A stretch of DNA of 64,000 bases from Mumia flava (GTDB taxonomy: Bacteria; Actinomycetota; Actinomycetes; Propionibacteriales; Nocardioidaceae): assembly GCF_002797495.1 (NCBI RefSeq), contig NZ_PGEZ01000001.1, positions 1,860,001 through 1,924,000 of the forward strand. The letters are read 5' to 3'. Made by a program: the position numbers and the translations under genes. Position 1 is the stretch's first letter; every line of letters starts with the position of its first letter. This document shows, piece after piece, positions 8,523 through 25,420 of this stretch. Below the pieces are notes generated by a model. It saw only the letters and a program-made list of their open reading frames with translations. It was not told where the DNA came from and did no database searches.

Positions 8523-8537
8523 TTCCGCTCAGCGGAA
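8523..8537. promoter_or_regulatory. perfect palindrome before pobA, probable PcaR/IclR operator
   Basis: TTCCGCTCAGCGGAA has 6-base perfect arms and a 3-base centre. It lies 44 bp upstream of the pobA ATG and just after the pcaR stop. It resembles the site in the pcaH-pcaR gap, which suggests that pobA and the pca operon answer to the same regulator. Confidence 0.62.
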
Positions 8538-8581
8538 GGCCTGGTTTCGCACCGTGACGCGCGGCACGGTTGCATGACCCC

Positions 8582-9772: not shown

Positions 9773-9829
9773 GGCTCGCGAGTCGCGCAGGGCGGGCTCG
9801 CGAGTCGCGCAGGGCGGGCTCGCGAGTCG
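9773..9829 (-). repeat. 22-bp tandem repeat array (family A), left of DUF1905 gene
   Basis: Two complete 22-bp units (9773-9794 and 9795-9816) and a partial third directly follow the pobA stop. Read on the minus strand, each unit is the anchor GACTCGCGAGC followed by CCGCCCTGCGC. The variable half is almost the same as in the array at 10166-10219, which is in the opposite orientation, so the 306-bp gene between is framed by inverted arrays. Confidence 0.8.
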
Positions 9830-9861
9830 ATGCTGTCGGTCAGCAGGGCTAGCGTCGGGTC

Positions 9862-10167
9862 GTGGAGGTTCAGCAGTACGAGTTCGACACGCCGGTGTGG
9901 CGTACGCCGGGCGAGACAGGCTGGTACTTCGCGACGCTGCCGCACGACGTCAGCGACGACATCGACGCCCGTACGGAGGTTCGCGCGGGGTTCGGGTCCG
10001 TACGGGTCCGGGTGCGCGTGGGTGCGACGGAGTGGGAGACGTCGGTGTTCCCCGATCGCCGGCGCGGGAGCTACGTGCTGCCCGTCAAGAAGGCGGTACG
10101 GAAGGCTGAGGGCATCGCCGAGGGCGCCAGGATCCGGATCGCACTGACCGTGCTGCGCACCGCGTGA
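9862..10167 (+). CDS. DUF1905-domain small protein
   Basis: 101 residues, GTG start. The sequence (FDTPVWRTPGETGWYFATLP, then GFGSVRVRVRVGATEWETSVFP and GSYVLPVKKAVRKAEGI) matches DUF1905, a small beta-barrel family of unknown function often found with YdeI-type domains. No signal peptide or membrane segment. No operon partner: pobA lies upstream after a 22-bp repeat array, and convergent soxR lies downstream. The stop codon is shared with the first unit of the right-hand array. Confidence 0.7.
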   Translation: MEVQQYEFDTPVWRTPGETGWYFATLPHDVSDDIDARTEVRAGFGSVRVRVRVGATEWETSVFPDRRRGSYVLPVKKAVRKAEGIAEGARIRIALTVLRTA

Positions 10168-10219
10168 CTCGTGAGCCCGCCGTGCGCGACTCGTGAGCCC
10201 GCCGTGCGCGACTCGCGGC
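10166..10219 (+). repeat. 22-bp tandem repeat array (family A), right of DUF1905 gene
   Basis: Units at 10166-10187 and 10188-10209 are identical: anchor GACTCGTGAGC plus CCGCCGTGCGC. A partial third unit runs to the soxR stop. The array fills the whole gap between two convergent stop codons, and its first two bases belong to the DUF1905 TGA. Confidence 0.82.
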
Positions 10220-10678
10220 TCAGGTGTCGGACGGACGGTCGCCGAGCAGGTAGCGAGGGCCGGGCCCGAGCCGCGCGGCACGGTCGCCCGGGTTCGACAG
10301 GCGGCAGGTCTGCAGCGACAGGCACCCGCACCCGATGCAGGAGTCCAGGTCGTCGCGCAGCCGCACCAGCTCGGAGATCCGTTCCTCCAGCCGACCGCGC
10401 CACGAGCGGGACAGCCGGGTCCAGTCCCTCTTCGTCGGTGTCCGGCCGGACGGCAGGGTCGCGAGCGCCTCACGGATCTCCTCGAGCGTGAGCCCCACGT
10501 GGGCTGCGGTCCGGATGAACGCCACCCTGCGCAGCGTGCTGCGGACGTACCGCCGCTGGTTGCCGGAGGTGCGGATCGAGCTGATCAGGCCGATCGACTC
10601 GTAGTACCGCAGGCCCGACGCCGCCACGCCGGAGCGCTCGGCGACCTCCCCGATCGTCAGAACCGGCTCCGCAGACAC
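10220..10678 (-). CDS. soxR: redox-sensing MerR-family activator SoxR
   Basis: 152 residues with a GTG start and an upstream GGGAGG. N-terminal MerR winged helix (LTIGEVAERSGVAASGLRYYE), dimerisation helix, then the [2Fe-2S] cysteine cluster CIGCGCLSLQTC at Cys114, Cys117, Cys119 and Cys125, the CX2CXCX5C pattern that defines SoxR. In actinobacteria SoxR responds mainly to redox-active compounds such as quinones and phenazines rather than to superoxide. It is divergent from the split transketolase operon, with a SoxR box in the shared gap. Confidence 0.92.
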   Translation of the reverse strand: MSAEPVLTIGEVAERSGVAASGLRYYESIGLISSIRTSGNQRRYVRSTLRRVAFIRTAAHVGLTLEEIREALATLPSGRTPTKRDWTRLSRSWRGRLEERISELVRLRDDLDSCIGCGCLSLQTCRLSNPGDRAARLGPGPRYLLGDRPSDT

Positions 10679-10742
10679 GCCGCACCTCCCGCCCGAGACT
10701 CCCGCCCCGAGGCCCCGGCCCCGGATCGCCGGCGCCGGACGC

Positions 10743-10774
10743 TTGACCTCAAGTTCACTTCAACTTGCACGATA
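10743..10774 (+). promoter_or_regulatory. SoxR box and MerR-type promoter of the transketolase-whiB7 operon
   Basis: A -35-like TTGACC (10743-10748 region) is followed by CCTCAAGTTCACTTCAAC, which matches 14 of 18 bases of the classical SoxR box (CCTCAAGTTAACTTGAGG). An overlapping dyad CAAGTT-6-AACTTG is also present. The -10-like CACGAT follows after about 19 bp, the long spacer typical of MerR-family promoters. It ends 6-7 bases before the ATG at 10781, so the transcript may be leaderless. Confidence 0.75.
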
Positions 10775-10780
10775 GCAGCC

Positions 10781-11512
10781 ATGACCACGACCACCACCCG
10801 CTCGGACCCTGCGGCAGCCGCGCCGGCCGCCGTACCGTCCGAGGTGCTCGACCTCCTGGCCCGGATCACGGGCGACGAGAAGCACGACCCGGCCTCCCAC
10901 TCGACCCTCGACGTCCTGTGGGTGCTCCACCGGTACGTGCTCGACGTCGCGCCCGACCGGACGGACGACCCCGATCGCGACCGGTTCCTGCTCTCCAAGG
11001 GCCACGGGCCGGCCTCCTACTACGCCGTGCTCGCCGCGCTCGGGTTCATCGCGCCCGACCAGCTCGACCGGGTCGGTTCCTGGGAGTCCAGGCTCGGGCA
11101 CCACCCGGACCGGACTCTCGTGCCCGGGGTCGAGATCGGCAGCGGTTCGCTCGGGCACGGACTGGCGCTCGCCGTCGGCACCGCACTCGGTCTGCGGGCG
11201 CAGGGCCGCACCCGCGCACGCGTCGTCGTGCTGGTCGGGGACGGCGAGCTGGACGAGGGCAGCAACGCCGAGGCGATCGCCCTCGCCGGCCGGCTGGGGC
11301 TCGGCCGGCTCACCTGCGTGGTGGTCGACAACGACTCCGCCGCGCTCGGATGGCCGGGCGGGCTCGCGGGCCGGTTCACCGTCGAAGGCTGGGACGTCGA
11401 CACGGTCGACGCTCACGACCAGGCGGCACTCCGTACGACCCTCGACGTCACCCACCCCGACCGTCCGAGGGCGGTCGTCGCCCGAACCGCACCGAGGGGA
11501 GGACGCCGATGA
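10781..11512 (+). CDS. transketolase-like protein, N-terminal (TPP-binding) subunit
   Basis: 243 residues, the thiamine-diphosphate half of a split transketolase. The TPP/Mg motif GDGELDEGSN is at 153-162. The conserved SKGHGPASYYAVLAALGFI (about 72-90) and GSGSLGHGLALAVG (about 120-133) are also present. It needs the separate C-terminal subunit encoded immediately downstream (ATGA overlap). Split transketolases serve pentose-phosphate, sugar-acid or deoxysugar pathways; the substrate here is unknown. Position behind a SoxR box suggests a role in carbon flow under redox stress, possibly NADPH supply. Confidence 0.83.
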   Translation: MTTTTTRSDPAAAAPAAVPSEVLDLLARITGDEKHDPASHSTLDVLWVLHRYVLDVAPDRTDDPDRDRFLLSKGHGPASYYAVLAALGFIAPDQLDRVGSWESRLGHHPDRTLVPGVEIGSGSLGHGLALAVGTALGLRAQGRTRARVVVLVGDGELDEGSNAEAIALAGRLGLGRLTCVVVDNDSAALGWPGGLAGRFTVEGWDVDTVDAHDQAALRTTLDVTHPDRPRAVVARTAPRGGRR

Positions 11513-12429
11513 GTGCTCCGGCGATGCGCGAGCGGTTCTACGACCAGGTCGGCCGGCTTCTCGACGACGACCCGCGGGTCGCACTCGTCCTCGCGGTGAT
11601 CGGCGCGTCGGCCGTCGACCCGGCGGTGGCGCGCCGCCACCCCGCCCGCCTGATCGACGTCGGCATCCGCGAGCAGACCATGGTCGGCGTCGCGGGCGGT
11701 CTCGCCCTCACCGGGATGCGCCCGATCGTGCACACGTACGCACCGTTCCTCGTCGAGCGCGCCTACGAGCAGGTCAAGCTCGACCTCGGCCACCAGGACG
11801 TCGGTGCGGTCCTGGTCAGCACGGGCGCGTCCTACGATGCGAGCAGCGCCGGCCGTACCCATCAGGCGCCGGCCGACGTCGCGCTGATCTCGGCGCTTCC
11901 CGGCTGGACGGTGCACGTCCCGGGTCACGCCGACGAGCTCGCGGCCGTCCTCACCGCCGCCGCGGGGTCCGACGACCGGGTCTACGTCCGGATGTCGTCG
12001 CAGTCCAACGATCGCGCGTACGCGACCGACGGCCGTCTCCACCTGGTCCGCGACGGCGGTGGTCCGCTCGTCGTCGCGGTGGGCCCGATGCTCGATCCGG
12101 TCCTCGCCGCGACCACGGGCCTCGGTGTCCGGGTGGCGTCGACCTCGACGCCGCACCCGTTCGACGCGCCCGGGCTGCGCGCACTCACGGCAGCGCCCTC
12201 GGACGGGTCCGCGGCGCCCGCCGAGGTCGTCGTGGTCGAGCCGTACCTCGAGGGCACGTCGGCCGCCGCCGTCGCCGCGGCGCTGGCCGACCGGCCGAGC
12301 CGCGTGCTGCACGTCGGGGTCCGACGCGACGTGGAGGTACGCCGGTACGGGACCCCGAAGGACCACGCGGCTGCGCACGGGCTCGACCCCACCGGACTGC
12401 GCCAGCGGATCACGGGGTGGCTGCGATGA
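11509..12429 (+). CDS. transketolase-like protein, C-terminal (pyrimidine-binding) subunit
   Basis: 306 residues. The catalytic glutamate of the pyrimidine domain is visible in DVGIREQTMVGVAGGLALTG (Glu55). The transketolase C-domain follows (VVVVEPYLEGTSAAAVAAALAD). With the preceding gene it forms the two halves of one enzyme. The downstream whiB7-like gene starts inside its stop (ATGA). The residues between the domains are shorter than in full-length transketolase, so function as a classical transketolase is not certain; DXS-like or apiose/sulfo-sugar enzymes share the fold. Confidence 0.82.
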   Translation: MSAPAMRERFYDQVGRLLDDDPRVALVLAVIGASAVDPAVARRHPARLIDVGIREQTMVGVAGGLALTGMRPIVHTYAPFLVERAYEQVKLDLGHQDVGAVLVSTGASYDASSAGRTHQAPADVALISALPGWTVHVPGHADELAAVLTAAAGSDDRVYVRMSSQSNDRAYATDGRLHLVRDGGGPLVVAVGPMLDPVLAATTGLGVRVASTSTPHPFDAPGLRALTAAPSDGSAAPAEVVVVEPYLEGTSAAAVAAALADRPSRVLHVGVRRDVEVRRYGTPKDHAAAHGLDPTGLRQRITGWLR

Positions 12430-12713
12430 CCGACCTGCGCCTGCTGCTCCCCGTGCCCGACGGGGTCGTCGATCACACCGTGCCCTGCCGCGACGGCGAC
12501 GAGCCGGACCTCTGGTTCGCCGAGCACACCGCGGACGTCGAGCGGGCCAAACGGCTGTGCCGGGCGTGCCCGCTGCTCGAGGCCTGCCTCGACGCCGCCG
12601 TCGCGCGGCGCGAGCCGTGGGGCGTGTGGGGCGGCGAGGTGTTCGTGCGCGGCGCCCCGGTCGAGCGCAAGCGCGGTCGCGGTCGTCCGCGCACCGACGA
12701 GCAGGCGGCCTGA
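12426..12713 (+). CDS. whiB7: WhiB7-like transcription factor
   Basis: 95 residues. The four [4Fe-4S] cysteines of WhiB proteins are Cys21, Cys45, Cys48 and Cys54 (CX23CX2CX5C). PDLWFA, the turn EPWGVWGGE and a C-terminal AT-hook (RGRGRPR) mark it as WhiB7-type, the activator of intrinsic antibiotic resistance genes in mycobacteria and streptomycetes. Its ATG overlaps the stop of the transketolase C-subunit by four bases. That is unusual, because whiB7 is normally monocistronic behind a regulatory leader with its own small ORF; none is seen here. A paralogue with a different role remains possible. Confidence 0.8.
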   Translation: MTDLRLLLPVPDGVVDHTVPCRDGDEPDLWFAEHTADVERAKRLCRACPLLEACLDAAVARREPWGVWGGEVFVRGAPVERKRGRGRPRTDEQAA

Positions 12714-12738
12714 GGTAAGTCACCGCGCCGCCAGGGCC

Positions 12739-12800
12739 GACTCGCGACCCCGCCCGGGATGACTCGCGACCCCGCCAGGGGCGACTCGCGACCACCCGAC
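12739..12800 (+). repeat. 22-bp tandem repeat array (family A), whiB7-DUF503 junction
   Basis: Two full units at 12739-12760 and 12761-12782, each GACTCGCGACC plus an 11-base tail (CCGCCCGGGAT or CCGCCAGGGGC), and a partial third unit. A decayed unit may precede the first. The array occupies the 115-bp gap between convergent whiB7 and the DUF503 gene. Confidence 0.75.
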
Positions 12801-12828
12801 TTGGGCGCGGTCGGTCGCAGCGGCGCGG

Positions 12829-13128
12829 TCAGTCGTGGGTGTTGAAGAACGCCCGGTGCGAGGCCAGCAGCTCCACCTCGGGGCGCCGGGCCATCGCGTC
12901 CTCGACCCGGTCGAGCACGTCGATCACGTGCGCGTTGTCGCCGGCGACGACGGCGATGCCGATGCCCGCACGGCGGTAGAGATCCTGGTTCTCGGTCTCG
13001 GCCACGGCGACGTCGAACGTGCGACGGAGGTCGGCCACGATCGGGCGGACCACCGCGCGCTTCTGCTTCAGCGACGCCACGTCACCGAGCAGCAGGTCGA
13101 ACTCGATCGTGCCGACCCACATGCTCAC
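12829..13128 (-). CDS. DUF503 (YlxP-like) protein
   Basis: 99 residues. The sequence MWVGTIEFDLLLGDVASLKQKR followed by ADLRRTFDVAVAE is the DUF503 signature; the family is often placed near ribosome-binding factor genes and has no proven function. The GTG at 13128 overlaps the stop of the universal stress protein gene (GTGA), so the two are coupled. An ATG two codons later is an alternative. Confidence 0.82.
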   Translation of the reverse strand: MSMWVGTIEFDLLLGDVASLKQKRAVVRPIVADLRRTFDVAVAETENQDLYRRAGIGIAVVAGDNAHVIDVLDRVEDAMARRPEVELLASHRAFFNTHD

Positions 13129-13637
13129 TCGTCGAAGTCGGCGTCGAGCACCTTGCGCTGGCCGGGCGTCGCCTCGATGTCGGTCGGCTGGACGATGACG
13201 ACCGTGGCCTGGGCGTGCCGCACGATCTGCTCGCTCACCGAGCCCAGCACGAGTCCCTTGAACCCGCCGAGCCCACGTCGGCCGAGCACGATGATCGCGA
13301 CCTTCGCCGAGGCCTCGATGATCCGGGTGGCCGGCTTGCCGTGCACCGCGGTCGTGCGGACGTCGACGGTCGGGTAGTCGGCGACCACCCCGGCGATGTC
13401 AGCGGAGAGGCGCTTCACGACCGCCTCGGCGAAGTCCTCCAACGGAGGCATGTAGCCGGGCTCCCAGCTGTCCGGACGCGGAGCCGTGGTCAGCACCCAC
13501 GCCCGTACGACCGTGACCGCCTGACCGGTCGTGGACGCGTACTCCAGCGCCCACCGCAGCGCCTGGTCGGAGAAGTCGGACCCGTCGTGACCGACGAGCA
13601 CGCCTCCGTCGACGTCGATCTCCTTCGTCGTGGCCAT
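13125..13637 (-). CDS. universal stress protein (UspA family, ATP-binding type)
   Basis: 170 residues, one Usp domain. It begins GVLVGHDGSDFSDQALRWALEYA and ends with the nucleotide-binding loop GRRGLGGFKGLVLGSVSEQIV, matching G2XG9XG(S/T) of ATP-binding Usp proteins. Substrates are unknown; the family acts in stress and dormancy responses. It is coupled to the DUF503 gene downstream. Confidence 0.87.
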   Translation of the reverse strand: MATTKEIDVDGGVLVGHDGSDFSDQALRWALEYASTTGQAVTVVRAWVLTTAPRPDSWEPGYMPPLEDFAEAVVKRLSADIAGVVADYPTVDVRTTAVHGKPATRIIEASAKVAIIVLGRRGLGGFKGLVLGSVSEQIVRHAQATVVIVQPTDIEATPGQRKVLDADFDE

Positions 13638-13666
13638 GCCTCAACCTACCGCGACGACGGCACCGC

Positions 13667-14161
13667 TCACCCTCCCGGTGCGGCACCGCGCTCCAGGTCG
13701 GTGACGCGGACTCCGTCCGCGACCTCACGCTCGCCGCACGACACGAACCCGTGCCGCACGTAGAGGGCGAGCGCGGGCCCGTTCGCGCTGCCGGTCGCCA
13801 CCACCGTGCGGTGCGTGGGTGCCCACCCGGCGAGCGCGTCGAGCAGCGCCGACGCGATGCCGCGCCGGTGGTGGGCCGGGTCGACCACGAGGCGGTCGAT
13901 GTCGACCGTGCCGTCGTCGAGCCGGAACCAGCTCACCGCGCCCACGAGCCGGTCGCCGTCGAGCGCGCCGAGGAACGTCGCGGTGCTCGCCCGGAGCTGC
14001 TCGAGGGACTCGGTGAGCAGCGGCAGGTCCGGGAAGGCGATCAGCTCGGCCTCGACGGCGTACGAGGCCCGCTGCAACGCCAGCAGGGCCGGGCCGGTGA
14101 CGGCGTCGCCGGGATCGATCTCGTGGATCGCCAGCTCGGGGCCCGTCCCGCCCGGCGTCAC
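13667..14161 (-). CDS. GNAT-family N-acetyltransferase
   Basis: 164 residues. The acetyl-CoA binding motif A is visible as VDRLVVDPAHHRRGIASALLDAL-type sequence (DIDRLVVDPAHHRRGIASAL), followed by VVATGSANGPALALYVRHGF, the motif B of GNAT proteins. Substrate unknown. The GTG start overlaps the stop of the ECF42 sigma gene by four bases (GTGA), so it is probably in the sigma factor operon and could belong to its response, though this pairing is not a known ECF42 rule. Confidence 0.8.
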   Translation of the reverse strand: MTPGGTGPELAIHEIDPGDAVTGPALLALQRASYAVEAELIAFPDLPLLTESLEQLRASTATFLGALDGDRLVGAVSWFRLDDGTVDIDRLVVDPAHHRRGIASALLDALAGWAPTHRTVVATGSANGPALALYVRHGFVSCGEREVADGVRVTDLERGAAPGG

Positions 14162-15477
14162 GAGACGGCCCGCTGCTGGGCGGCCGCCGCGAGCTCGAGG
14201 AGCGCACGGCGGTCGTGCGCGGTCGGCGCGATCGCGGCCGCCTCCTCGTAGGCGCCGGCAGCCTCACGGTCGCGACCCGCGCGGGCCAGGAGGTCGGCGT
14301 GCACGCTCGGCAGCAGGTGGTAGCGCGCGAGCCGGGAGTCCGAGCGCAGCGCCTCCACGACCGGCAGCGCCTCCGCGACCCCGTACGCCCGCGACACCGC
14401 GACGGCGCGGTTCAGCTCCACGATCGGCGACGGGTTCAGCGCCGCCAGCGCGTCGTACAGGGCGACGATGCGCTGCCAGTCGGTCGCCTCCGGCCTCGTC
14501 GCCCGCGCGTGGCAGGCGGCGATCGCCGCCTGGAGCGTGTACGGCCCGAGCGGGCGACGCAGCCCGACGGCGTGGTCGAGCGCAGCGAGACCGTGACCGA
14601 TCAGCGTCCGGTCCCAGCGCGAGCGGTCCTGGTCGTCGAGCAGCACCGGCCTCCCGCCCGCGTCCGTACGGGCGGCGAACCTCGACGCCTGCAGCTCCAT
14701 CAGCGCGACCAGCCCGCTGGGCTCGGGCTCCCGCGGCAGCAGCGCCGCGAGCACCCGCCCGAGGCGCATCGCCTCACCGCACAGGTCGTCGCGGACCACC
14801 CGGTCACCGCTGCTGGCGGAGTAGCCCTCGTTGAAGACGAGGTAGATCACCTCGAGCACCGCGCGCAGGCGCTCGGGCAGCTCCTCGGCGGACGGGATCT
14901 CGAACGGGACCCGGGCCTCGGACAGGGTGCGCTTCGCCCTCGAGATCCGCTGGCCCACGGTCGCCGACGGGGTCAGGAACGCGCGCCCGATCTCGTCGGT
15001 CGACAGGCCGCCGAGCATCCGCAGCGTCAGCGCCACCTGCGCATCGCGGGACAGCACCGGGTGGCACGCGACGAACACGAGCCGGAGCACGTCGTCGCCG
15101 ACCGCGTCCTCGACGACGCCCTCGGGGTCCGGGGTGGCGGCCCGGCGCTGCGCCTCGAGGTCGGGGGCCATCACCTCGTACTTGTGCCGGCGGTTGTCCT
15201 CGCGGCGGATCCTGTCGACCGCGAGGTTGCGCGCCACCTTGGTCAGCCACGCCGCGGGGTTGTCCGGGACGCCGTCGACCGGCCACTTCTGCAGGGCGAC
15301 CACGAGGGCGTCCTGCGCGAGGTCCTCAGCGAGCCCCACGTCCCCGACGACGCGGACGAGCGCGGCGACCACGCGGGCGGACTCGATCCGCCACACCGCG
15401 TCGATGGTCCTCCCGACGTCACGCAACGGCGCCGTCCTCGTACACGTCCGACCGGCTCCCCGCCGACCCTCAGGCAC
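14158..15477 (-). CDS. ECF sigma factor of group ECF42 (SnoaL-less, TPR-like C-terminal extension)
   Basis: 439 residues from a GTG at 15477; a TTG at 15426 with GAGGA upstream would give 422. Region 2 (ALVRVVGDVGLAEDLAQDALVVALQKWP, then DNPAAWLTKVARNLAVDRIRR) and region 4 (VALTLRMLGGLSTDEIGRAFL, TVGQRISRAKRTL) are clear. After them comes a long helical C-terminal domain of about 200 residues (EVIYLVFNEGYSAS ... ALNPSPIVELNRAVAVSRAYG) that defines ECF42. ECF42 factors have no anti-sigma factor and are encoded next to DGPF/YCII proteins, as here. The gene overlaps its partner by eight bases. Confidence 0.88.
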   Translation of the reverse strand: MPEGRRGAGRTCTRTAPLRDVGRTIDAVWRIESARVVAALVRVVGDVGLAEDLAQDALVVALQKWPVDGVPDNPAAWLTKVARNLAVDRIRREDNRRHKYEVMAPDLEAQRRAATPDPEGVVEDAVGDDVLRLVFVACHPVLSRDAQVALTLRMLGGLSTDEIGRAFLTPSATVGQRISRAKRTLSEARVPFEIPSAEELPERLRAVLEVIYLVFNEGYSASSGDRVVRDDLCGEAMRLGRVLAALLPREPEPSGLVALMELQASRFAARTDAGGRPVLLDDQDRSRWDRTLIGHGLAALDHAVGLRRPLGPYTLQAAIAACHARATRPEATDWQRIVALYDALAALNPSPIVELNRAVAVSRAYGVAEALPVVEALRSDSRLARYHLLPSVHADLLARAGRDREAAGAYEEAAAIAPTAHDRRALLELAAAAQQRAVS

Positions 15478-15892
15478 CCTCGAGCTGGTCGCGCAGCCGC
15501 GTCTCACGCTCCACGATCTGCGGCGTCGCGTCGGTGAAGTCCTCGAGCTCGAAGACCTGGCGCAGCTCGAGCTCCGAGGTCTCGTCGTCCGCCCTCGGGC
15601 AGCGCTTCGCCCACTCGACGGCCTCCTCGAAGGACTTGACCTCCCAGATCCAGAACCCGGCGAGCAGCTCCTTGCTCTCGGTGAACGGACCGTCGACGAC
15701 GCGGACGTCAGCGCCGTCGAACTGCACCCGAGCGCCGTACGAGCTGTCCCGCAGCCCCTCGCCCGCGATCATCACGCCGGCGTTGACGAGCTCCTCGTTG
15801 TAGCGGCCCATCGCCTCCATCATCTCGTTGTCGGGCGTCGCTCCCGACTGCTCGGTCTCCGGCGTCGCCTTGACCAGAACCATGACCTTCAT
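15470..15892 (-). CDS. YCII/DGPF-domain protein, ECF42 partner
   Basis: 140 residues. The diagnostic DGPF motif is in VRVVDGPFTESKELLAGFW. The family forms small ferredoxin-like dimers. In Streptomyces, ECF42 factors control the DGPF gene next to them. The ATG at 15892 has AGGAG seven bases upstream. It is the first gene of a DGPF-ECF42-GNAT operon. Enzymatic role unknown. Confidence 0.87.
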   Translation of the reverse strand: MKVMVLVKATPETEQSGATPDNEMMEAMGRYNEELVNAGVMIAGEGLRDSSYGARVQFDGADVRVVDGPFTESKELLAGFWIWEVKSFEEAVEWAKRCPRADDETSELELRQVFELEDFTDATPQIVERETRLRDQLEGA

Positions 15893-15969
15893 CGCGAACT
15901 CCTCTGCTGGGGCCGCCGGACCCGTGTGCCGCGGCGGCGTCTCACCCGTACGCCGAACGGCGCGCGCCC

Positions 15970-15980
15970 GTTTCGACATC
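15970..15980 (-). promoter_or_regulatory. ECF42-type -35 element before the DGPF gene
   Basis: On the minus strand the sequence GGATGTCGAAAC includes TGTCGA (15978-15973), the -35 motif reported for ECF42-dependent promoters. It lies about 80 bp before the DGPF start, consistent with autoregulation of the operon. A matching -10 element is not certain. Confidence 0.45.
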
Positions 15981-16014
15981 CTGCGCGAACAACTCTCTGG
16001 ACGTGGCCCACGAC

Positions 16015-16506
16015 TCAGCCGGGGATCTCGACGACGACCCGCAGCTGACGCCCGCCCGGCGGGCACGAGGGGCCGTTCGGCTCGACGAGGGCCGGCGTCT
16101 GCGACACCCGCGTGACCGCGATCGCGCGCGCGGTGCGGTCGAGCACCCGTGCGACCACCATCACCGGGGCGTCCGGAAGGTCGATCTCCGCGAAGCCCGT
16201 CATCGTGCCGTCCGGCTCCGTGCGGGCCGAGCAGACCGCGTCCGGGTCCTCGCCCTCGCACCCCTCGTCGACCGCCCGCGTCCCCTCCGTGAGGCCCGCG
16301 ACGCTCCGCTGGCACGCACCGTCCCAGCAGGCACGCAGCCGGACCTGGTTCGCACGCTCCGCCCCGGCGCCGTCGACGACCACACCCACGCCCGAGGGCG
16401 CCCCGATCTCGGTGCACGCCTGCGCTCCGTCGCCGACCGCGGTGCCGCAGCCGAGCAGGAGGGCCAACGGCGCCACCACCAGGAGCGAGCGGGGCCGGAA
16501 TCCCAT
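16015..16506 (-). CDS. putative lipoprotein
   Basis: 163 residues. N-terminal basic residues (MGFRPR), a hydrophobic core and a lipobox LLLGC (Cys20) predict a lipoprotein on the outer face of the membrane. The mature part has several further cysteines (ACTEIG, RACWDGACQ, EGCEGED, AVCSAR), which may pair as disulphides. No recognisable family. ATG at 16506 chosen because it gives a standard lipoprotein signal; a GTG three codons upstream is possible. Stands alone, 122 bp from the ECF42 operon. Confidence 0.6.
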   Translation of the reverse strand: MGFRPRSLLVVAPLALLLGCGTAVGDGAQACTEIGAPSGVGVVVDGAGAERANQVRLRACWDGACQRSVAGLTEGTRAVDEGCEGEDPDAVCSARTEPDGTMTGFAEIDLPDAPVMVVARVLDRTARAIAVTRVSQTPALVEPNGPSCPPGGRQLRVVVEIPG

Positions 16507-16525
16507 CCCGGCCACCCTAGAGAAC

Positions 16526-16561
16526 GACGGCCCCGCCGGTCCAGGGACCGGCGGGGCCGTC
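16526..16561 (-). terminator. rho-independent type hairpin after the acyl-CoA dehydrogenase operon
   Basis: Perfect 16-bp stem GACGGCCCCGCCGGTC / GACCGGCGGGGCCGTC with a 4-base loop, 20 bp beyond the stop of the acyl-CoA dehydrogenase gene at 16581. No U-tract, as is usual for high-GC actinobacteria. Confidence 0.8.
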
Positions 16562-16580
16562 GGGAGGGTCTCGTACGGGA

Positions 16581-17696: not shown

Positions 17697-17705
17697 GTCA
17701 GCCCC

Positions 17706-18881: not shown

Positions 18882-18928
18882 CGTGCGCTCTCCTGTGGAC
18901 GGACGGATGTGACGCCATCCACCCTAGG

Positions 18929-18942
18929 TAAGCGACCGCTTA
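18929..18942. promoter_or_regulatory. inverted repeat upstream of acyl-CoA dehydrogenase pair, TetR-type operator
   Basis: TAAGCGACCGCTTA, 6-base perfect arms around a 2-base centre, 47 bp before the ATG at 18881. Size and position suit a TetR-family repressor, the usual regulator of fadE genes in actinobacteria. No regulator gene is adjacent. Confidence 0.55.
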
Positions 18943-19035
18943 TCTGTCGAACCGGGGTCGTCCGGCGGGTCCGGGAGCGCTCGCGGCCGCACGCGGCGGC
19001 GCAGGGTCGGGCAGCGTCACCGGGGCATTGGGAAA

Positions 19036-19124
19036 CCCCGGCCGCTACCGACGGGGGATACAGCAGCGACCGGGGCCTGAGAGGAGGCTACTTGAATCTG
19101 AACAGTCGCTCAAGAAGGCCCTGA
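19036..19124 (+). other. structured segment with strong ribosome site and a 10-codon ORF
   Basis: Within the 289-bp gap 18882-19170. CCCCGGCCGCT (19036-19046) can pair with AGCGACCGGGG (19065-19075) with one mismatch. It is followed by GAGGAGG (19081-19087) and, four bases on, TTG opening a 10-codon frame (LNLNSRSRRP) that ends at 19124. No plus-strand gene follows. It could be a leader of a lost gene, a small peptide or chance. Nothing else is recognised in the gap apart from the operator at 18929. Confidence 0.25.
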
Positions 19125-19170
19125 AGTGACCTGGGTCACCCCTGGGAGGCGGCCTCCCGGGCCGTTCCGC

Positions 19171-20031
19171 TCAGCGAACCGTGACCTGCCGCGAGGCGAG
19201 GCCGTTGCGGGCCTGACGCTGCTCCGACGTCAGCGGAGAAGCGTCGGCGAGCGCCTCGTCCAGGCGTTCCCGGAGACGGACCGCAGGCTCGGCGATCGAC
19301 TCCGCGCCACCACGATCCTCCAGCTCCCAGACCGGCACGAGCAAGCCGTGCGCCCTGAACGAGCCGATGAGCCGGGTCGACGGCGCCAGGCGGTCGGCAT
19401 CGACCACGTGGAGTCGGGCGAGCGCCGACAGCAGGGCGTCCTCGTCGTGCGGCATCACCCACCGCAGGTACTCGCGATCACCCAGGCTCGCCCAGTACGC
19501 GCCGTCGACGCCCTCGAGCCGCTCGGTCGGCGCGACCATCTCGTTCGCCTGCTCGATCGCCGCCGCGACCGCCCCGCCGGCGTCCTCGGCACCCTCGGTC
19601 CAGTAGTCGAAACCGTCGTGGACGGTCACGTCGAACGCGCTGTCCGGGTCCACGAGCTCCTGCAGCAGAGGCCCGGCCCCGGGGTCGGTCACCGCGATCT
19701 CGGTCCCGGGCTCGGTCGCCAGCCCGACCTCGACGGCCCGAGCCAGGTCGCGGCTCGGGTCACCGAAGTTGTGGTTGACCTGGAGGCCGATCCACATCTC
19801 GCCGTCCTGGCGCACGAGACCCGCGGCGGCCGACGGCAGCAGCGTGCAGACCTTGACGTCGGTCTCCGACGCGACGGACTCGCGCAGCCGGACCGAGGCC
19901 GTCGCAGCCGGGACGAACTCGCGCAGGGCGACCCAGTCCACCTCACCAGGCATCCCGTCGAAGGTACGGGGCCGGAACGGGACCCGCTCGGTCTTCTGCG
20001 GCTTGACGCGTCGGCGCGATCGCTTGCCCAT
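19171..20031 (-). CDS. DUF5926 family protein
   Basis: 286 residues starting with a very basic tail (MGKRSRRRVKPQKTERVPFRPRTFDG), then an acidic, soluble protein without membrane segments. This matches the actinobacteria-specific DUF5926 family, sometimes mis-annotated as SecA-related. No catalytic motif is evident. The ATG at 20031 follows TGGGAGTC; the membrane protein gene upstream ends 83 bp earlier, so they may be co-transcribed. Confidence 0.7.
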   Translation of the reverse strand: MGKRSRRRVKPQKTERVPFRPRTFDGMPGEVDWVALREFVPAATASVRLRESVASETDVKVCTLLPSAAAGLVRQDGEMWIGLQVNHNFGDPSRDLARAVEVGLATEPGTEIAVTDPGAGPLLQELVDPDSAFDVTVHDGFDYWTEGAEDAGGAVAAAIEQANEMVAPTERLEGVDGAYWASLGDREYLRWVMPHDEDALLSALARLHVVDADRLAPSTRLIGSFRAHGLLVPVWELEDRGGAESIAEPAVRLRERLDEALADASPLTSEQRQARNGLASRQVTVR

Positions 20032-20114
20032 CGTGGGAGTCTCCTCGTCGAGATCGTGGTGGTGGTCGCCGGCACGATGCCGGAGCCGCAGGCAGCGCGG
20101 GTGCGCCGTGGGCG

Positions 20115-21356
20115 CTAGTCGTCCGACGACCGCCAGGGCGAGTCCGGCTCGCGACGCGACGGCTGCCACCAGCCGGACTGGTCCTCGTCGCCGGCCTGCT
20201 CGTCCTGGGCCGGCGGGACGGCCGGCTGCTCCTGGGTCGCCTCGGCCGGGTCGGGTGCAGGCGCAGGCGCAGGCGGCGCCTCGTACGACTCGGTGCCCGT
20301 CGGCTGGTCCGGGGCGGGCTCCGGCTCGCCCCAGGCCGCATGCTCGCCGTGCGCGGGTGCGGGATCGCCCCAGGCGGCGGGCTGCTCCTGCGGAGCCGGG
20401 GCCGGCGGCGTCGAGGGCTGCTCCTGCGGGTACGCCTGCCCGTAGGGCTGGTCGTACGGCCCCCGGCCGTGCTGACCGTAGGACTGCTGGGGCGGCTGGG
20501 CGTACGGATCGCCGTAGGGCTGCTGACCGTACTGCTGCTGACCGTAGGGCTGCTGGCCGTACGGGTCCCCGTAGGACTGCTGACCGTACTGCTGCTGACC
20601 GTACGGGTCGCCGTACGGCTGCTGGGCGTACGGCTGCTGACCGTACGGCTGCTGACCGGACGACTGCTGGGCGTAGGGCTGCTGGGGGGGCTGGCCGTAC
20701 GGCGCACCCGGCGACGGGGCCGGTGCGCGGTCCGCGACCGGCCGGGGTCGCATCGTCAGGGAGATCACGCCGAAGAGCAGGCCGAGCGCGATCGTCAGCA
20801 TGCCGAGCCCGACAGCGACGTAGCCGTCCGCAGCGGTCCCGACCTCGTCGACGGAGTCGACGCCCGACGACATCATCGCGCCGATCACGGTCACGACGAG
20901 ACCGGCCGCGACGATCACCCAGCCGATCCAGCCGACCACGGTGCGGCCGTGCCCCTTCGCCATGGCCAGCACCCAGGCGGCGACCGCGAGCAGCATCGCC
21001 AGCACGACGAGCACGACGAGGATGACGTTCACGGCGTCGCTCGTCTCGGCGGCACTCTGCGCCACCGAGCCCGGATCGTCCGCGAGGTCGGCGAAGATCC
21101 CTCGCCGCGCCGACAGCGCGAAGAATCCGTACACGACCGCCATCAGCAGAGCAGGGACCAGCGCGATCGCGCCGACGACACCCCAGCGGGAGGTCTGCGC
21201 GCGATCGTCGGTCCGCGGCTCGGGCGGGACCGGAGGCATCGACCAGGCCTGCGTCGGCTCGGGCCGGGACGGGTCGGCGTTCCAGCTCGCCGGGGCTCCG
21301 CCGGGGTGCGGAACGCCGGGGTCCGACCCGTACGGGCCTGGATGGCCTTGCGCCAT
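20115..21356 (-). CDS. membrane protein with proline/glutamine-rich QPYG repeat tail
   Basis: 413 residues. A Pro/Gly-rich cytoplasmic start (about 55 residues) precedes four predicted membrane segments ([79 protein letters not shown]). The tail is low-complexity: about 20 imperfect QQPYGQ/GDPY units (about residues 218-310; DNA 20431-20702), then a Pro/Ala/Glu-rich stretch to the end. Similar tails in actinobacterial membrane proteins interact with cell-wall or division complexes, but the role here is unknown. The nucleotide repeats of the tail make copy-number variation likely. Confidence 0.7.
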
Positions 21357-21464
21357 GGGTCCTCCTCGCTCGGCCGACGGCGGCAGCCTCAGCGTAACGA
21401 ACCTGCACGTCGGCGGCGTGTCACCCGTCCGCCGGGCCCTCGACGCGGCTGGCACGATGGAGGC

Positions 21465-21791
21465 ATGTACGAGGTGTCCGTTCCCACTGTGACCGTCGAC
21501 GGCGTTCCCGACCCGCTGCCCGCCGATCTCGTCGTGCTCGACGTCCGCGAACCCGACGAGTGGTCGACCGGCCACATCGCCGGTGCCGTCCACATCCCCC
21601 TCGGGACCCTTCCGGGCCGCGTCGCCGAGGTCTCCGGCAACGCCCAGGTTCTCGTGTACTGCCACCTGGGCGGCCGGTCCGCCCAGGCCACCGCCTACCT
21701 CCAGCGCAACGGCGTGGACGCGGTCAACCTCGCCGGCGGCGTCGACGCCTGGACGGCCGCGGGCCGCGACCTGGTCCGGCCCCAGGCCTGA
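21465..21791 (+). CDS. rhodanese-like sulfurtransferase, single domain
   Basis: 108 residues. Rhodanese domain: [23 protein letters not shown], active-site cysteine in VYCHLGGRS, and [10 protein letters not shown] near the end. Transfers sulfur from thiosulfate or a persulfide carrier; substrate unknown. ATG at 21465 follows GGAGG. It is convergent with fpg, only 10 bp apart, and divergent from the membrane protein gene. Confidence 0.87.
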
Positions 21792-21801
21792 CCCGCCGGT
21801 C

Positions 21802-22692
21802 TCAGCGCAGCAGCTTCGACATCCTGCGGTCGGCGAGGGGTTTCCCGCCGGTCTGGCAGGTCGGGCAGTACTGCAGCGACGAGTCCGCGAACGACACCTC
21901 GCGGATCGTGTCACCGCAGACGTCGCACGTCTCGCCCGTGCGGCCGTGCACCCGCAGACCCGACTTCTTCTCCGCCTTGAGCTCCGAGGCCGCCAGCCCC
22001 GCGGAGCGCGCGAGCGCGTCGCGCAGCGTCGAGCCGATCGCGTCGTAGAGGACGGCGAGCATCTCGGGGGACGCCAGCACGCTGCTCGCGGGCGTGAACG
22101 GAGACATCGTCGCGGCGTGCAGGATCTCGTCGGAGTAGGCGTTGCCGATCCCGGCGACCTGGGACTGGTCGCGCAGCACGCCCTTGATCTGGCTCCGTCC
22201 GGCCGCGGCGAGGATCTGCTCGAGCACCTCCGGCGTGAAGTCGTCGGCGAGCGGGTCGGGACCCAGCCGCGCGATCCCGGGCACCTCCTGCGGATCGCGG
22301 ACCACCGAGACGGCCAGACCCTTCTTCGTCCCGGCCTCGGTGAGGTCGAACCCCGCGCCGTCGTCCAGCACGACCCGGAGCGCGAGCGGGTTCTTCGCGC
22401 CGCCCATCCGCGGCGGTGCCGTGGGTTGGCTGTCCTTCCAGCGCAGCCAGCCGGCCCGGGCGAGGTGGATCACCAGGTGCAGTCCGCCGGCCTCGATGTC
22501 GATGAACTTCCCGTGCCTGCTCACGTCGTCGACCACGAGCCCGGCGAGCGACTGCGGCGGCGGGTCGTACGTCTTGAGCACGCTCACGTTGACCGGGAGG
22601 ACGGAGACGATCGCACGCGGTTCGGCACCGTCGACCCCCAGCCGGGTCCGCAGGTCGGCGACCAGGGAGGCCACCTCGGGAAGCTCGGGCAC
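21802..22692 (-). CDS. formamidopyrimidine-DNA glycosylase / endonuclease VIII family
   Basis: 296 residues, GTG start. N-terminal PELPEV (proline nucleophile Pro2, Glu3), helix-two-turn-helix in the middle, and a C-terminal zinc finger CDVCGD ... CPTC followed by Q. Removes oxidised bases and cleaves the strand by beta-elimination. The finger ends [21 protein letters not shown], longer than typical Fpg, so an Nei-like activity is also possible. Confidence 0.87.
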
Positions 22693-22729
22693 CTCACCAG
22701 TGTGCCGCAGAACCCCGGTCCACGGAACG

Positions 22730-22768
22730 GAGAAGGACCCCGTCGCCGCAGCGATCGGGGTCCTTCTC
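22730..22768 (-). terminator. hairpin terminator after the HU gene
   Basis: 13-bp perfect stem GAGAAGGACCCCG / CGGGGTCCTTCTC with a 13-base loop, 15 bp beyond the HU stop. In the opposite direction it lies just before fpg. Confidence 0.8.
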
Positions 22769-22783
22769 GAGGCTCGTCGGCCG

Positions 22784-23056
22784 TTACTTGACGGCGTTCT
22801 TGAGCTTGCTGCCCGCGGTGACCTTCACGCCGAATCCGGCGGGGATCTCCAGGGTCTCGCCGGTCGCGGGGTTGCGCCCGGTGCGCGCCGCACGCTCGAC
22901 CCGCTCGACGGTCAGGAGGCCAGGGATCTGGACCTTCTCGCCCTTGCCGGCGGCGTCGATCAGGGTGTCTCCGAGGGCGCTGAGGACCGAGTCGGCGTCG
23001 GCCTTGGTGGTGCCCGCGCGCTCGGCGATCGCGGCTACGAGTTCAGTTCGGTTCAC
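22784..23056 (-). CDS. hup: nucleoid-associated protein HU
   Basis: 90 residues from a GTG with GGAGG upstream. The canonical HU sequence is complete: MNRTELVAAIAERAGTTKADA at the start and the DNA-binding arm GRNPATGETLEIPA. It lacks the long Lys/Ala tail of mycobacterial HupB. Compacts DNA and assists recombination and repair. Own promoter at 23173-23200. Confidence 0.92.
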   Translation of the reverse strand: MNRTELVAAIAERAGTTKADADSVLSALGDTLIDAAGKGEKVQIPGLLTVERVERAARTGRNPATGETLEIPAGFGVKVTAGSKLKNAVK

Positions 23057-23172
23057 GGGAATCCTCCGACTCCGATGGTGGTCAGTTCTGTCTGGCGCAC
23101 CACCAGCATAGGAAGCCAGGGGCGGAATCCCCCGTATTTCCGGCCTCCACGCCGGTGTGGCGCCTCGCTGAG

Positions 23173-23200
23173 ACAGTAGAACACCTTCGGCTGAAGTCAA
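23173..23200 (-). promoter_or_regulatory. sigma-A type promoter of the HU gene
   Basis: TTGACT (23200-23195) and TACTGT (23178-23173) are separated by 16 bp on the minus strand. The -35 box overlaps the aat stop. The predicted start of transcription leaves an untranslated leader of about 110 bases. A second -10-like TATGCT occurs nearer the gene. Confidence 0.6.
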
Positions 23201-23868
23201 CGCCACGGGGCCGGGAGCGGTGTGTCGAGCACCTGTGGGAGGACCGCCAGGTACGCGTCGCGCGACCACGCCTGGACCCCCAACGAAGCCAGGTGGTCGG
23301 TCCGCCACTGGGTGTCGATCAGACGCGGCCCGGCGCCGTCGGCGGCGATCAGCTCGACCAGTCCGACCAGAGCCGCCTTGGACGCGTCGGTGACCCGGTG
23401 AAACATGCTCTCACCTGCGAAGAGACCGCCGATCGCCACGCCGTACAACCCGCCTGCCAGAGCGCCGTCAGCCGTGCGGGCCTCGATCGAGTGGGCCCAC
23501 CCGAGCTCGTGCAGCCGGCCGTACGCGGAGGCGATCGCGTCGTCGATCCAGCCCCCCTCGCGACGGGGGTCCGCGCAGGCCTCGACCACCTCCGCGAAGG
23601 CGGTGTCGACGGTGATCGTGAAACGGCGCGCCGACTTCCGCAGCGAGCGCGACACGCGGAGGTCGTCAGGACGCAGGACCCCGCGCTCCAGCGGCGACCA
23701 CCACCCCATCGGCCCCCCTGGCTCGGTCGGCATCGGGAACAGCGCGGAACGATAGGCGTGGACCAGCGTGGTCGGCTCGAGGTCCGCCCCGATCCCCACG
23801 AAGTCGTCGTCCGGCCACTCGTCGGGAGAGAAGTCCCAGCGCGTCGGTCCGAGCGGCACGGGTGTCAC
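23197..23868 (-). CDS. aat: leucyl/phenylalanyl-tRNA--protein transferase
   Basis: 223 residues. Adds Leu or Phe to proteins with N-terminal Arg or Lys, creating N-degrons for ClpS/ClpAP. Family motifs: RWDFSPDEWPDDDFVGIGADL, YRSALFPMP, WWSPLERGVL, GWIDDAIASAYGRLHELGWAHS, GGLYGVAIGGLFAGESMFHR, and DTQWRTDHLASLG. Length is the family norm. Confidence 0.93.
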   Translation of the reverse strand: MTPVPLGPTRWDFSPDEWPDDDFVGIGADLEPTTLVHAYRSALFPMPTEPGGPMGWWSPLERGVLRPDDLRVSRSLRKSARRFTITVDTAFAEVVEACADPRREGGWIDDAIASAYGRLHELGWAHSIEARTADGALAGGLYGVAIGGLFAGESMFHRVTDASKAALVGLVELIAADGAGPRLIDTQWRTDHLASLGVQAWSRDAYLAVLPQVLDTPLPAPWR

Positions 23869-23946
23869 GACTGCGACTCTAGCCAGCGGCGACCGGCGTG
23901 GCGCTGCGGCTGCCGCCTAGGATGGCGGTGGACGCAGGAGGTGGCC

Positions 23947-24648
23947 GTGGGGATCGCGAAGTCGGCGGCGAAGTTCGTCGCGCCACGGGTGGCGATGGCC
24001 GCGGGCCCGAAAGCCACGTCCGGCTACATCCGCGTGCTGCTCGACCGCGCGATCGACGGAGTCGGCCCGTGGCGGGCCGTCTGGCAGACGGCCGACGAGC
24101 GCCTGGCGCTGGCCGGTGGCGACGTCGAGGCGGCCATCGACGTGATGGTCGCGAACCACGTCCGCTACGCCGGCGCCCAGGGGTTCGTGACGAACCTCGG
24201 CGGCGCGTACGCGATGGCGGTGACCATCCCCGCGAACGTCGCCGGCCTCGCGCTGCTGCAGTGCCACCTGGCGGCCGGGATCGCGTACCTGCGGGGCTAC
24301 GACCTGTCCGACCCCCGCGTCCGCAACGCGGTCATGGCGACGCTGCTCGGGCGCGACCAGGTGGAGAAGATGGTCCGCTCGGGCGCGCTGCCGTCGACCC
24401 CGATGGGGCTCGCGACCTCCCCGGTGCACGACCCGGCGCTCGACGAGAAGGTCGCCCGGGAGGTCACGCAGGCGCTGTTCGGGCGGGTCTCCGGCAAGCA
24501 GGGCGCGTCGATGCTGGTCCGGCGGATCCCGCTGCTGGGCGGCGGGGTGGGCCTGGTCGCGGACGCGGTCGGCACCGGCCGGCTCGCATCGTACGTCCGC
24601 GAGGAGCTCCGCGACCGGCGGCTCGGCCAGGACCCGCACGGACGCTGA
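23947..24648 (+). CDS. EcsC-family protein
   Basis: 233 residues. Start GTG at 23947 is five bases after GGAGG; a GTG at 23941 is an alternative. The central hydrophobic stretch NLGGAYAMAVTIPANVAGLALLQCHLAAGIAYLRGYDL and the later GGGVGLVADAVGTGRLASYVREE fit the EcsC family, named for a Bacillus ABC transporter partner but of unknown function. May be membrane-associated. Divergent from aat with a 78-bp gap. Confidence 0.65.
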   Translation: MGIAKSAAKFVAPRVAMAAGPKATSGYIRVLLDRAIDGVGPWRAVWQTADERLALAGGDVEAAIDVMVANHVRYAGAQGFVTNLGGAYAMAVTIPANVAGLALLQCHLAAGIAYLRGYDLSDPRVRNAVMATLLGRDQVEKMVRSGALPSTPMGLATSPVHDPALDEKVAREVTQALFGRVSGKQGASMLVRRIPLLGGGVGLVADAVGTGRLASYVREELRDRRLGQDPHGR

Positions 24649-24795
24649 GCGCCACGCGTGGATCGATCCGTGCCAACAACACACAGGTGACCCTGCGGGC
24701 GTGCTCCAATACCGGTGGGTTCCAGGGCCGACGGTCCGTCGGAGCCGCACGGTGACCCCGACACCGCGCACCACGAAGTCGAAGGAGTCACCATC

Positions 24796-25344
24796 ATGAA
24801 CACACGTACGATCCGGGTCGCGGCAACGCTGTCCGGTGCGGTCCTCGCCGGGGCGCTTCTCCCCGCGGCCGCGCACGCCGAGACGGACGTCGTCCGCGAT
24901 CCGCGGGGCGACGCTCCGCGCGCGGTGGACATCACCAAGCTGCGCGTCGCGCACGGCACCTACCGCGTGAAGGGCACGCTCACGATCCCGCACCTGAAGA
25001 AGCGCAAGGCCGCGGCCACCGAGCTGATCCTGAAGCCACGCAAGTCCGGCGGCTGGACCTACCACGTCGGGGTGTGGCGGGGCCGCCAGGGCAAGGTCCG
25101 CTCGCTCTACCTCGGGTGGATGCACCGCGACGACCCGGCGTCCTGGCAGACCCTGCCGTGCAACGGGATCAGGACGTCGGCGACGAAGAAGAAGCTGAAG
25201 ATCAGCGTCCCGAACCGCTGCCTGACCGAGTCGCCGTCCGGACGCAGGCTCAAGGGGAAGGCGGGGATCCTGGCGCGGATCGGACCGGGCCACGACTCGT
25301 TCGACGAGATGACCCGCTACACGCCGTGGCTGCGCCAGGGCTGA
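24796..25344 (+). CDS. secreted protein of unknown function
   Basis: 182 residues. ATG at 24796 follows GAAGGAG. A Sec signal peptide is clear: NTRTIR, hydrophobic core ATLSGAVLAGALLPAA, and an AHA-E cleavage site near residue 29. The mature protein is very basic (HLKKRKAAA, SATKKKLKISVPNRC) with two cysteines that may form a disulphide, and starts with DVVRDPRGD. Similar small secreted proteins are common in Nocardioidaceae. I do not recognise a family with a known role. Its stop codon is shared with the first unit of the 22-bp array that follows. Confidence 0.68.
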   Translation: MNTRTIRVAATLSGAVLAGALLPAAAHAETDVVRDPRGDAPRAVDITKLRVAHGTYRVKGTLTIPHLKKRKAAATELILKPRKSGGWTYHVGVWRGRQGKVRSLYLGWMHRDDPASWQTLPCNGIRTSATKKKLKISVPNRCLTESPSGRRLKGKAGILARIGPGHDSFDEMTRYTPWLRQG

Positions 25345-25420
25345 CTCGCGAGCACACCACGACTGACTCGCGAGCACACCACGACTGACTCGCGAGCACG
25401 CCACGACTGACTCGCGAGCG
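25341..25420 (+). repeat. 22-bp tandem repeat array (family A), secreted protein-hmgL junction
   Basis: Three full 22-bp units (25341-25362, 25363-25384, 25385-25406) and a partial fourth (to 25420). Each has the anchor GACTCGCGAGC and an 11-base tail ACACCACGACT, with one change in the third unit. The array spans precisely from the stop codon of the secreted protein gene to the stop codon of convergent hmgL. Confidence 0.88.

Follow-up and report, generated by a model that had tools for sequence, protein, structure and literature searches.

A family of 22-bp tandem repeats at gene ends in Mumia flava

Four 22-bp arrays and the family they belong to

The window analyzed here is a stretch of 64,000 nucleotides from Mumia flava (contig NZ_PGEZ01000001.1, positions 1,860,001 to 1,924,000). 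It contains four short arrays, each following or lying between the ends of genes, and all four are present where a sequence-only reading of the window had placed them (Table 1). Tandem Repeats Finder returned a period of 22 for every one of them, as that reading had claimed, with a low copy number of 2.5 to 3.6. Array 1 is read from the strand opposite to arrays 2, 3, and 4, and its unit on the minus strand is GACTCGCGAGCCCGCCCTGCGC.

Table 1. The four arrays and the genes that flank them (positions in the window; TRF, interval and percent match given by Tandem Repeats Finder).
Feature	Coordinates	Strand	TRF	Description
Gene 5' of array 1	8582..9772	+		Pfam FAD_binding_3
Array 1	9773..9829	-	9773-9829, 100%	2.6 copies, minus-strand anchor; abuts the preceding gene's stop codon, which ends at 9772
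Gene separating arrays 1 and 2	9862..10167	+		Pfam DUF1905
Array 2	10166..10219	+	10162-10215, 96%	2.5 copies; variant anchor GACTCGTGAGC; occupies the gap between convergent stop codons (10167/10220)
Gene convergent on array 2	10220..10678	-		Pfam MerR
Gene 5' of array 3	12426..12713	+		Pfam WhiB
Array 3	12739..12800	+	12728-12793, 86%	3 copies (TRF 3.0), tails unlike; flanked by a convergent gene pair with ends at 12713 (+) and 12829 (-)
Gene convergent on array 3	12829..13122	-		Pfam DUF503
Gene 5' of array 4	24796..25344	+		No Pfam match
Array 4	25341..25420	+	25341-25419, 98%	3.6 copies; occupies the gap between convergent stop codons (25344/25421)
Gene convergent on array 4	25421..26359	-		Pfam HMGL-like

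Each unit combines a constant anchor, GACTCGCGA, which is about 9 bp long and has the palindrome TCGCGA as its core, with a spacer (tail) that is fixed in length and loosely conserved in sequence. An anchor shared by the four arrays, as proposed from the sequence, was confirmed, with the qualification that array 2 carries a variant and array 1 has the anchor on the other strand. The accompanying picture of tails specific to each locus proved too clean: most anchor-pair rows across the genome have in common a CGCC block at unit positions 13 to 16. Conservation of the tail within a locus was only partly borne out: arrays 1, 2, and 4 each repeat their tails, but in array 3 the tail changes (CCCGCCCGGGAT, then CCCGCCAGGGGC), and 479 of 2089 positions (23%) over 37 arrays are mismatched at lag 22. 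The recurring tails also speak against a CRISPR array, in which the spacers would be unique.

When three or fewer mismatches were allowed, we found 76 anchor pairs spaced by 22 bp genome-wide, at 38 places over four contigs, while the reversed pattern gave a single pair. The excess of such pairs elsewhere in the genome, on which the sequence-only reading had made its case depend, is therefore present. Random spacing of the anchor, which would have spoken against a family, was not seen: with the spacing left free between 13 and 43, all 48 exact pairs stood at 22, and the reversed control gave 0. The arrays are thus part of a genome-wide family that exceeds chance. Since 48 of 48 pairs keep the spacing of 22 despite the lag-22 mismatches, the spacing is retained while the sequence drifts. 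In 633 kb chosen around the arrays, 36 of 39 lag-22 regions are noncoding. Some arrays outside the window have four or more anchors (L214, for example), and the arrays are clustered along the genome, with 3 neighbor pairs less than 500 bp apart versus 0.16 expected.

Relation to known repeats

Bacterial satellites of constant size were reportedly first described by Subirana and Messeguer (J. Bacteriol., 2020). In the part of a later account that was accessible (PMC8161180), they are tandem repeats that keep a constant size of 20 to 23 nt, vary in sequence, carry a short motif peculiar to each species, and are found in bacteria including Actinobacteria; several noncoding arrays occur per genome, they are sporadic among species, their function is unknown, and their describers call them enigmatic. 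A binding protein that requires a given size has already been suggested for them in the same account. The form of these repeats was therefore already in print, contrary to the sequence-only reading, which took it to be undescribed. Judged against this partial account, the Mumia period of 22 falls within the 20- to 23-nt range and close to two helical turns, and the arrays are likewise noncoding, several per genome, and different in sequence. The short motif is restricted as well: of 118 genomes, 3 carry GACTCGCGA spaced by 22 bp, and these belong to a single genus. Most Mumia arrays differ in having fewer than four repeats, although four is the lower limit of the published search (PMC8161180) and not a property of the satellites. 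It is well supported, as to class and anatomy, that the Mumia arrays, with their 22-bp unit, are a new lineage-specific family of this known class of noncoding satellites.

What the present analysis adds to the literature on constant-size satellites is the position at gene ends, the direction, and the empty sites in relatives. The accessible part of PMC8161180 makes no mention of convergent genes, stop codons, orientation, downstream position, or terminators. A literature search, carried out largely outside subscription papers, gave no report of the Mumia family or of a direction of 22-nt satellites relative to stop codons.

Other repeat types fit less well. That the arrays are neither ordinary REP elements nor a VNTR was upheld: REP or BIME elements would be palindromic hairpins, whereas the longest stem in the array gaps has a median of 5, and the family is spread genome-wide and not confined to a single VNTR locus. 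The iterons of plasmid origins are protein-bound direct repeats with a spacing close to two turns of the helix, and they form one cluster at the origin. The Mumia arrays share this spacing of direct repeats, but they lie by the dozen at chromosomal gene ends, the family occupying 38 places instead of a single cluster. The MIRU of mycobacteria are dispersed intergenic tandem repeats that contact TGA codons, as here, but their unit is about 40 to 100 bp and they lie in operons, while the Mumia unit is 22 bp and mostly found between convergent genes. Direct repeats of TAACTGA, known from Beggiatoaceae, Cyanobacteria, and Bacteroidetes, resemble the Mumia arrays, in the accessible part of their description, in that numerous short tandem sets lie between genes, are oriented with respect to them, occur sporadically in distantly related bacteria, and have an unknown reader; they differ in being heptamers that in most cases closely precede a start codon, the Mumia repeats being 22-bp units behind stops (PMC4679880).

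Position, direction, and empty sites

The arrays lie preferentially at the ends of genes. Among the 35 arrays that were classed, 19 are between convergent genes, compared with 90 of 577 gene pairs in the background (p = 1.5e-7), and 3 are in divergent gaps. For the 13 arrays in co-directional gaps, the stop codon is closer than the next start in 11 cases and is touched or overlapped in 10, and this contact is seen even in gaps of up to 509 bp. The arrays also have a preferred direction: in the 23 arrays assignable to one gene end (14 of 37 were not assignable), GCTCGCGAGTC reads in the same sense as the gene upstream in 19 and antisense in 4 (19/23, p = 0.0026). Where neighboring arrays on opposite strands are less than 2 kb apart, the order is minus-plus in 6 of 6 cases.

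A fixed direction behind stop codons would be expected of an RNA-level 3' element, in which the transcribed array would supply protein-binding or folding units that stabilize the mRNA or end transcription. The hairpin results argue against it. Stems of at least 9 occur in 3 of 17 convergent gaps with an array and in 11 of 73 without, and the median fold z is -1.2 versus -0.7. Since hairpins are alike in the two sets, the arrays are not visibly replacing terminators, and neither an intrinsic terminator nor the substitution of one is supported by the stem counts. No tail hairpin with significant covariation was found in 30 arrays with 400 permutations (lowest p over 27 axes, 0.01 uncorrected). 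This test was made noisy by the wrong strand being read in at least three of these arrays (window 9765, window 10154, and L232 9776) and by off-register units in L214 and L222. Rfam gave no match in window positions 8000 to 27,000. We therefore regard an element acting in RNA as unlikely, although a sequence-specific RNA-binding protein may read the array.

At the site of arrays 1 and 2, four relatives have no array. The same genes are separated by array-less gaps of 16 bp in G001, 3 bp in G002, and 19 bp in G004, and the genes flanking array 2 are 14 bp apart in G005. At the site of array 3, the gap is 639 to 959 bp in three relatives, and at that of array 4 it is 300 to 2921 bp in four of five relatives and 70 bp in G005.

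The longer gaps would fit a deletion-repair scar, in which the array took the place of hundreds of bases at the sites of arrays 3 and 4 that are present in most of the relatives covered. This is highly improbable: G005 has only 70 bp at the array 4 site, a deletion is not needed at the site of arrays 1 and 2 given the gaps of 3 to 19 bp in three relatives, and repair would not leave one common anchor at 38 places. The apparent gain in gaps this short, and the dispersal of copies behind stop codons, are what a mobile REP- or MIRU-like repeat, moved to gene ends by a transposase acting in trans, might produce. The unit is far shorter than that of MIRU, however, and the copies have neither a REP-like hairpin nor constant flanks; contact with TGA says little, since TGA makes up 531 of 581 stop codons in the stretches examined in the same genome. 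We consider this origin quite improbable. Single-copy units cannot be claimed as precursors of the arrays, as anchors outside arrays behind the relatives' stop codons are too few (for example, TGA-CCGCGAGTC in G005 and TGA-CCGCTCGCGGGTC in G003). A weight-matrix scan for such units in our own stretches and in the relatives gave no information, its matrix having combined the two strands and its threshold having been too low.

A possible boundary function and arrays elsewhere

As the most likely reading, we hypothesize that the anchors, about two helical turns apart, are sites for a putative binding protein that needs them on one face of the DNA, and that the array would act as a polar boundary at the gene end, where it would slow or terminate transcription or keep convergent genes apart. 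New copies would come from tandem duplication in place and from short arrays being copied to other gene ends. From the spacing, the position, the direction, and the absence in relatives, we give this reading of the family a tentative probability of roughly 40%. The unrelated Miniimonas arenae also speaks for it: 22-bp CTCGCGA arrays there are sense in 12 cases and antisense in 2, with 79 of 83 triples at 22,22. Against it stand the lack of a hairpin difference, the arrays in divergent gaps, those left unassigned, the weaker spacing in Mumia quercus, where 9 of 17 TCGCGA triples are at 22,22, and the direction count of 16 versus 6 (p about 0.05) in the other genomes once Miniimonas is set aside.

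A serious rival, which may well be correct even if we do not favor it, is that the arrays are neutral or selfish satellites whose units are multiplied by slippage or copying and persist where they do least harm, namely at gene ends; the size of 22 bp would then reflect manufacture and not function. Such satellites would account for the low copy number, the clustering, the placement where insertion harms least, and the patchy occurrence, with the array 1/2 site empty in four relatives and the family in only 3 of 6 genomes of the genus. Moreover, because the background of empty sites consists of short intergenic gaps, the gene-end position itself may reflect tolerance. Free drift would not be expected to yield the direction bias, the stop contact in long co-directional gaps, or a spacing that holds in spite of 23% mismatch. 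Some three dozen short arrays with a clear gene-end position, a preferred direction, and relatives lacking the array offer a tractable case for these enigmatic satellites.

Arrays of TCGCGA at 22 bp also occur at least in some unrelated bacteria, in genomes selected by the motif itself, with different flanks around TCGCGA. At least one TCGCGA triple is present in 56 of 396 actinobacterial genomes, versus 19 for the reversed control; in the matches listed, the spacing is mostly unequal, and equally spaced triples have various periods. TCGCGA cannot be claimed to be the core of 22-bp satellites in general, since this motif served to find the other genomes and was the sole motif scanned. Inverted inner spacer segments in Mumia quercus and in G512, a genome of Bacteroides, looked like pairing; by eye, only about half of the adjacent spacers in G512 are inverted, so pairing is not claimed. 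It is conceivable, though unlikely, that polar 22-bp arrays with a TCGCGA core behind stops form a gene-end boundary system that is common to unrelated bacterial phyla, through repeated origin or through transfer, and has a single type of protein as its reader. If so, 22-nt satellites would gain a function, and their fixed period would be a helical-phasing requirement.

Arrays, units and period

The four arrays described in the sequence-only reading are all present in the sequence (see table). A search of the whole Mumia flava genome (4402465 bases in 7 contigs, with the window at C1:1860001-1924000) revealed 76 pairs of the anchor GACTCGCGAGC spaced 22 bp apart versus 1 for the reversed pattern, at up to 3 mismatches, in agreement with that reading, which had staked the family on such an excess elsewhere in the genome. 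Counted from the rows, the pairs occupy 38 places, one of which (C2:647017) has a period of 11. When the spacing was left free from 13 to 43, 48 of 48 exact ACTCGCGA pairs fell at 22. The consensus unit is approximately GACTCGCGA[GC]C[CAG]CGCC, followed by five loosely conserved bases and then C or T. The tail is thus fixed in length, as proposed, but not wholly locus-specific, since it is partly common to loci. At L217:10008-10056, in a gap called divergent, GCTCGCGAGTC repeats every 11 bp, half the usual period.

Repeats in the window and their surroundings
Feature	Window position	Strand	Period	Context
Array 1	9773-9829	minus	22 bp	after FAD_binding_3 gene
Array 2	10166-10219	plus	22 bp	between convergent DUF1905 and MerR genes; fills the space between two stop codons
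Array 3	12739-12800	plus	22 bp	
Tandem repeats	20490-20693		15, 27, 42 and 57 bp	within predicted gene 20115-21665 (minus strand)
Array 4	25341-25420	plus	22 bp	fills the space between two stop codons
Array with GGTCGAGGCGCGAGC	38610-38744		41/42 bp	between convergent genes
Array with the same GGTCGAGGCGCGAGC	45797-45940		30 bp	between convergent genes
Repeat, 4.7 copies	46686-47023		29 bp	continues into 110-bp duplication

Period specificity was surveyed at 80% identity in 633505 bases of this genome, comprising the window and 30 stretches chosen around arrays, with overlaps trimmed. In this array-centered sample, 36 of the 39 lag-22 regions were non-coding, and 12 non-coding regions were found at the double, lag 44. 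Lag 21 gave 6 regions; of the lags between 10 and 60 that are not multiples of three, none of the others exceeded 3 non-coding regions.

Position and direction relative to genes

Genes were called with a purpose-written codon-usage script, not a standard gene finder. The context set consisted of 37 arrays, each containing two or more anchor pieces; two classed as coding, which we suspect to be gene-finder errors, were omitted from the test. The others lie in 19 convergent, 13 co-directional, and 3 divergent gaps, compared with 90, 397, and 90 among 577 background gene pairs, array-bearing gaps included. The convergent excess is significant (p = 1.5e-7), also once weighted by array-free intergenic length (p = 9e-9). 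Within the co-directional gaps, 11 of 13 arrays lie closer to the stop than to the following start, and 10 of 13 abut or overlap the stop. The seven genes next to the window arrays belong to unrelated types.

When each of the 37 arrays was matched to the closest gene 3' end no more than 40 bp away, GCTCGCGAGTC read downstream of the stop in the sense direction in 19 and antisense in 4 (p = 0.0026); of the 14 left unassigned, 6 were ambiguous, 4 were far from a 3' end, and 4 had no 3' end. At loci L047-L126 of other genomes, picked by motif and kept from the matches listed, with 60 bp allowed, 28 arrays were sense and 8 antisense (p = 0.0012), 56 of 92 being unassignable. Miniimonas contributes 12 sense and 2 antisense, and without it the count is 16 versus 6 (p about 0.05). 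Where two arrays on opposite strands lie less than 2 kb apart, the minus-strand array comes first; this holds for 6 of 6 such pairs in M. flava and for 11 of 11 readable Miniimonas pairs among the matches listed. Such an order is expected of arrays tied to gene 3' ends in sense orientation.

We tentatively propose that the anchors would be sites for a binding protein, about two helical turns apart, forming a polar boundary at gene ends (probability roughly 0.4). The main rival, that the arrays are neutral satellites in gene ends that tolerate them, is a serious one and only slightly less probable. Strong hairpins did not distinguish array gaps (3 of 17) from other convergent gaps (11 of 73), pairing inside tails was not significant after allowing for the 27 axes tried, and Rfam gave no family at threshold in window 8000-27000. 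The 37 places include 3 neighbor pairs less than 500 bp apart (0.16 expected) and 6 less than 5 kb apart (1.5 expected), the expectation being uniform and not gene-end placement.

Corresponding sites in relatives

A stricter unit pattern, scanned in 118 genomes including five genus-mates (G001-G005), matched in 3, namely M. flava, G001 (1 match), and G004 (4), and none of those scanned outside the genus matched. The genes flanking arrays 1 and 2 are 16, 3, and 19 bp apart in G001, G002, and G004, with no array; in M. flava, the DUF1905 gene sits between them. G005 keeps this gene and has 14 bp replacing array 2, and G003 has 1192 bp of different sequence at the site. The gap of array 4 spans 2921, 814, 300, 702, and 70 bp in the five relatives and that of array 3 spans 959, 808, and 639 bp in the three covered; the larger gaps look as if they contain extra genes. 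Since window 12713-12829 and 25344-25421 hold only the array in M. flava versus hundreds of bases in most relatives covered, deletions may have occurred at arrays 3 and 4. In the gap matching array 3, L243 (G003) and L244 (G004) carry similar inverted repeats, of CTTTCCGTTGGGCCC and GCCCCACCGGAA types.

One lag-22 array, of different sequence (G001, L200:12471), was found in about 379 kb of the relatives (391364 bases less 12002 counted twice), a sample that omits the array-selected stretches L197 and L207-L209 and three very small G002 contigs.

Repeat class and TCGCGA arrays in other bacteria

Excerpts of PMC8161180 describe constant-size bacterial tandem repeats, 20-21 nt in Bacillus and 20-23 nt across many groups, Actinobacteria named. 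There, families are species-specific, and most repeats within a species carry a short conserved motif; the length equals two helix turns, a protein polymerising on DNA and requiring constant repeat size is suggested, and the function is left open. As far as these excerpts go, the Mumia family matches the description and differs by its low copy number. The arrays are a real, genome-wide family of a known but unexplained class; the earlier view of an undescribed class gives way to this description, to which the present family adds a location at gene ends, a preferred orientation, and relatives that lack the array at corresponding sites.

When the GTDB collection was scanned for CTCGCGA occurring three times 22 bp apart, at least 120 stretches matched, of which 80 loci were kept. 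Among the matches listed, their record titles name Bacteroidales, Verrucomicrobia, Actinobacteria, Deltaproteobacteria, and others, and the flanks around CTCGCGA vary from species to species. Pairs at spacing 15-37 were counted in twelve genomes with both strands summed, so that palindromic anchors score on both and some pairs are not at 22 (reversed control in brackets): uncultured Bacteroides 154 (0), Miniimonas arenae 147 (9), Bacteroides ndongoniae 81 (0), Mumia quercus 69 (2), Aeromicrobium sp. Leaf350 68 (3), a Verrucomicrobia bin 42 (1), a Bacteroidaceae bin 35 (2), and the remaining five 26 (10), 11 (10), 9 (5), 6 (14), and 4 (0). Because these genomes were selected by motif, we claim no TCGCGA enrichment among satellites. 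By our own count, triples were spaced 22,22 in 79 of 83 overlapping cases in Miniimonas and 25 of 25 in the uncultured Bacteroides, and in only 9 of 17 in Mumia quercus. In the uncultured Bacteroides G512, among the matches listed, the inner spacer is inverted by eye in about half of adjacent units with the 22-bp spacing still exact, which slippage alone would not give.

Some TCGCGA triple occurs in 56 of 396 actinobacteria versus 19 for the reversed control (own count), mostly with unequal spacing among the matches listed. One actinobacterium (G132) has 27 TCGCGA matches, most of those listed with period 24, for example C5:128721-128846.
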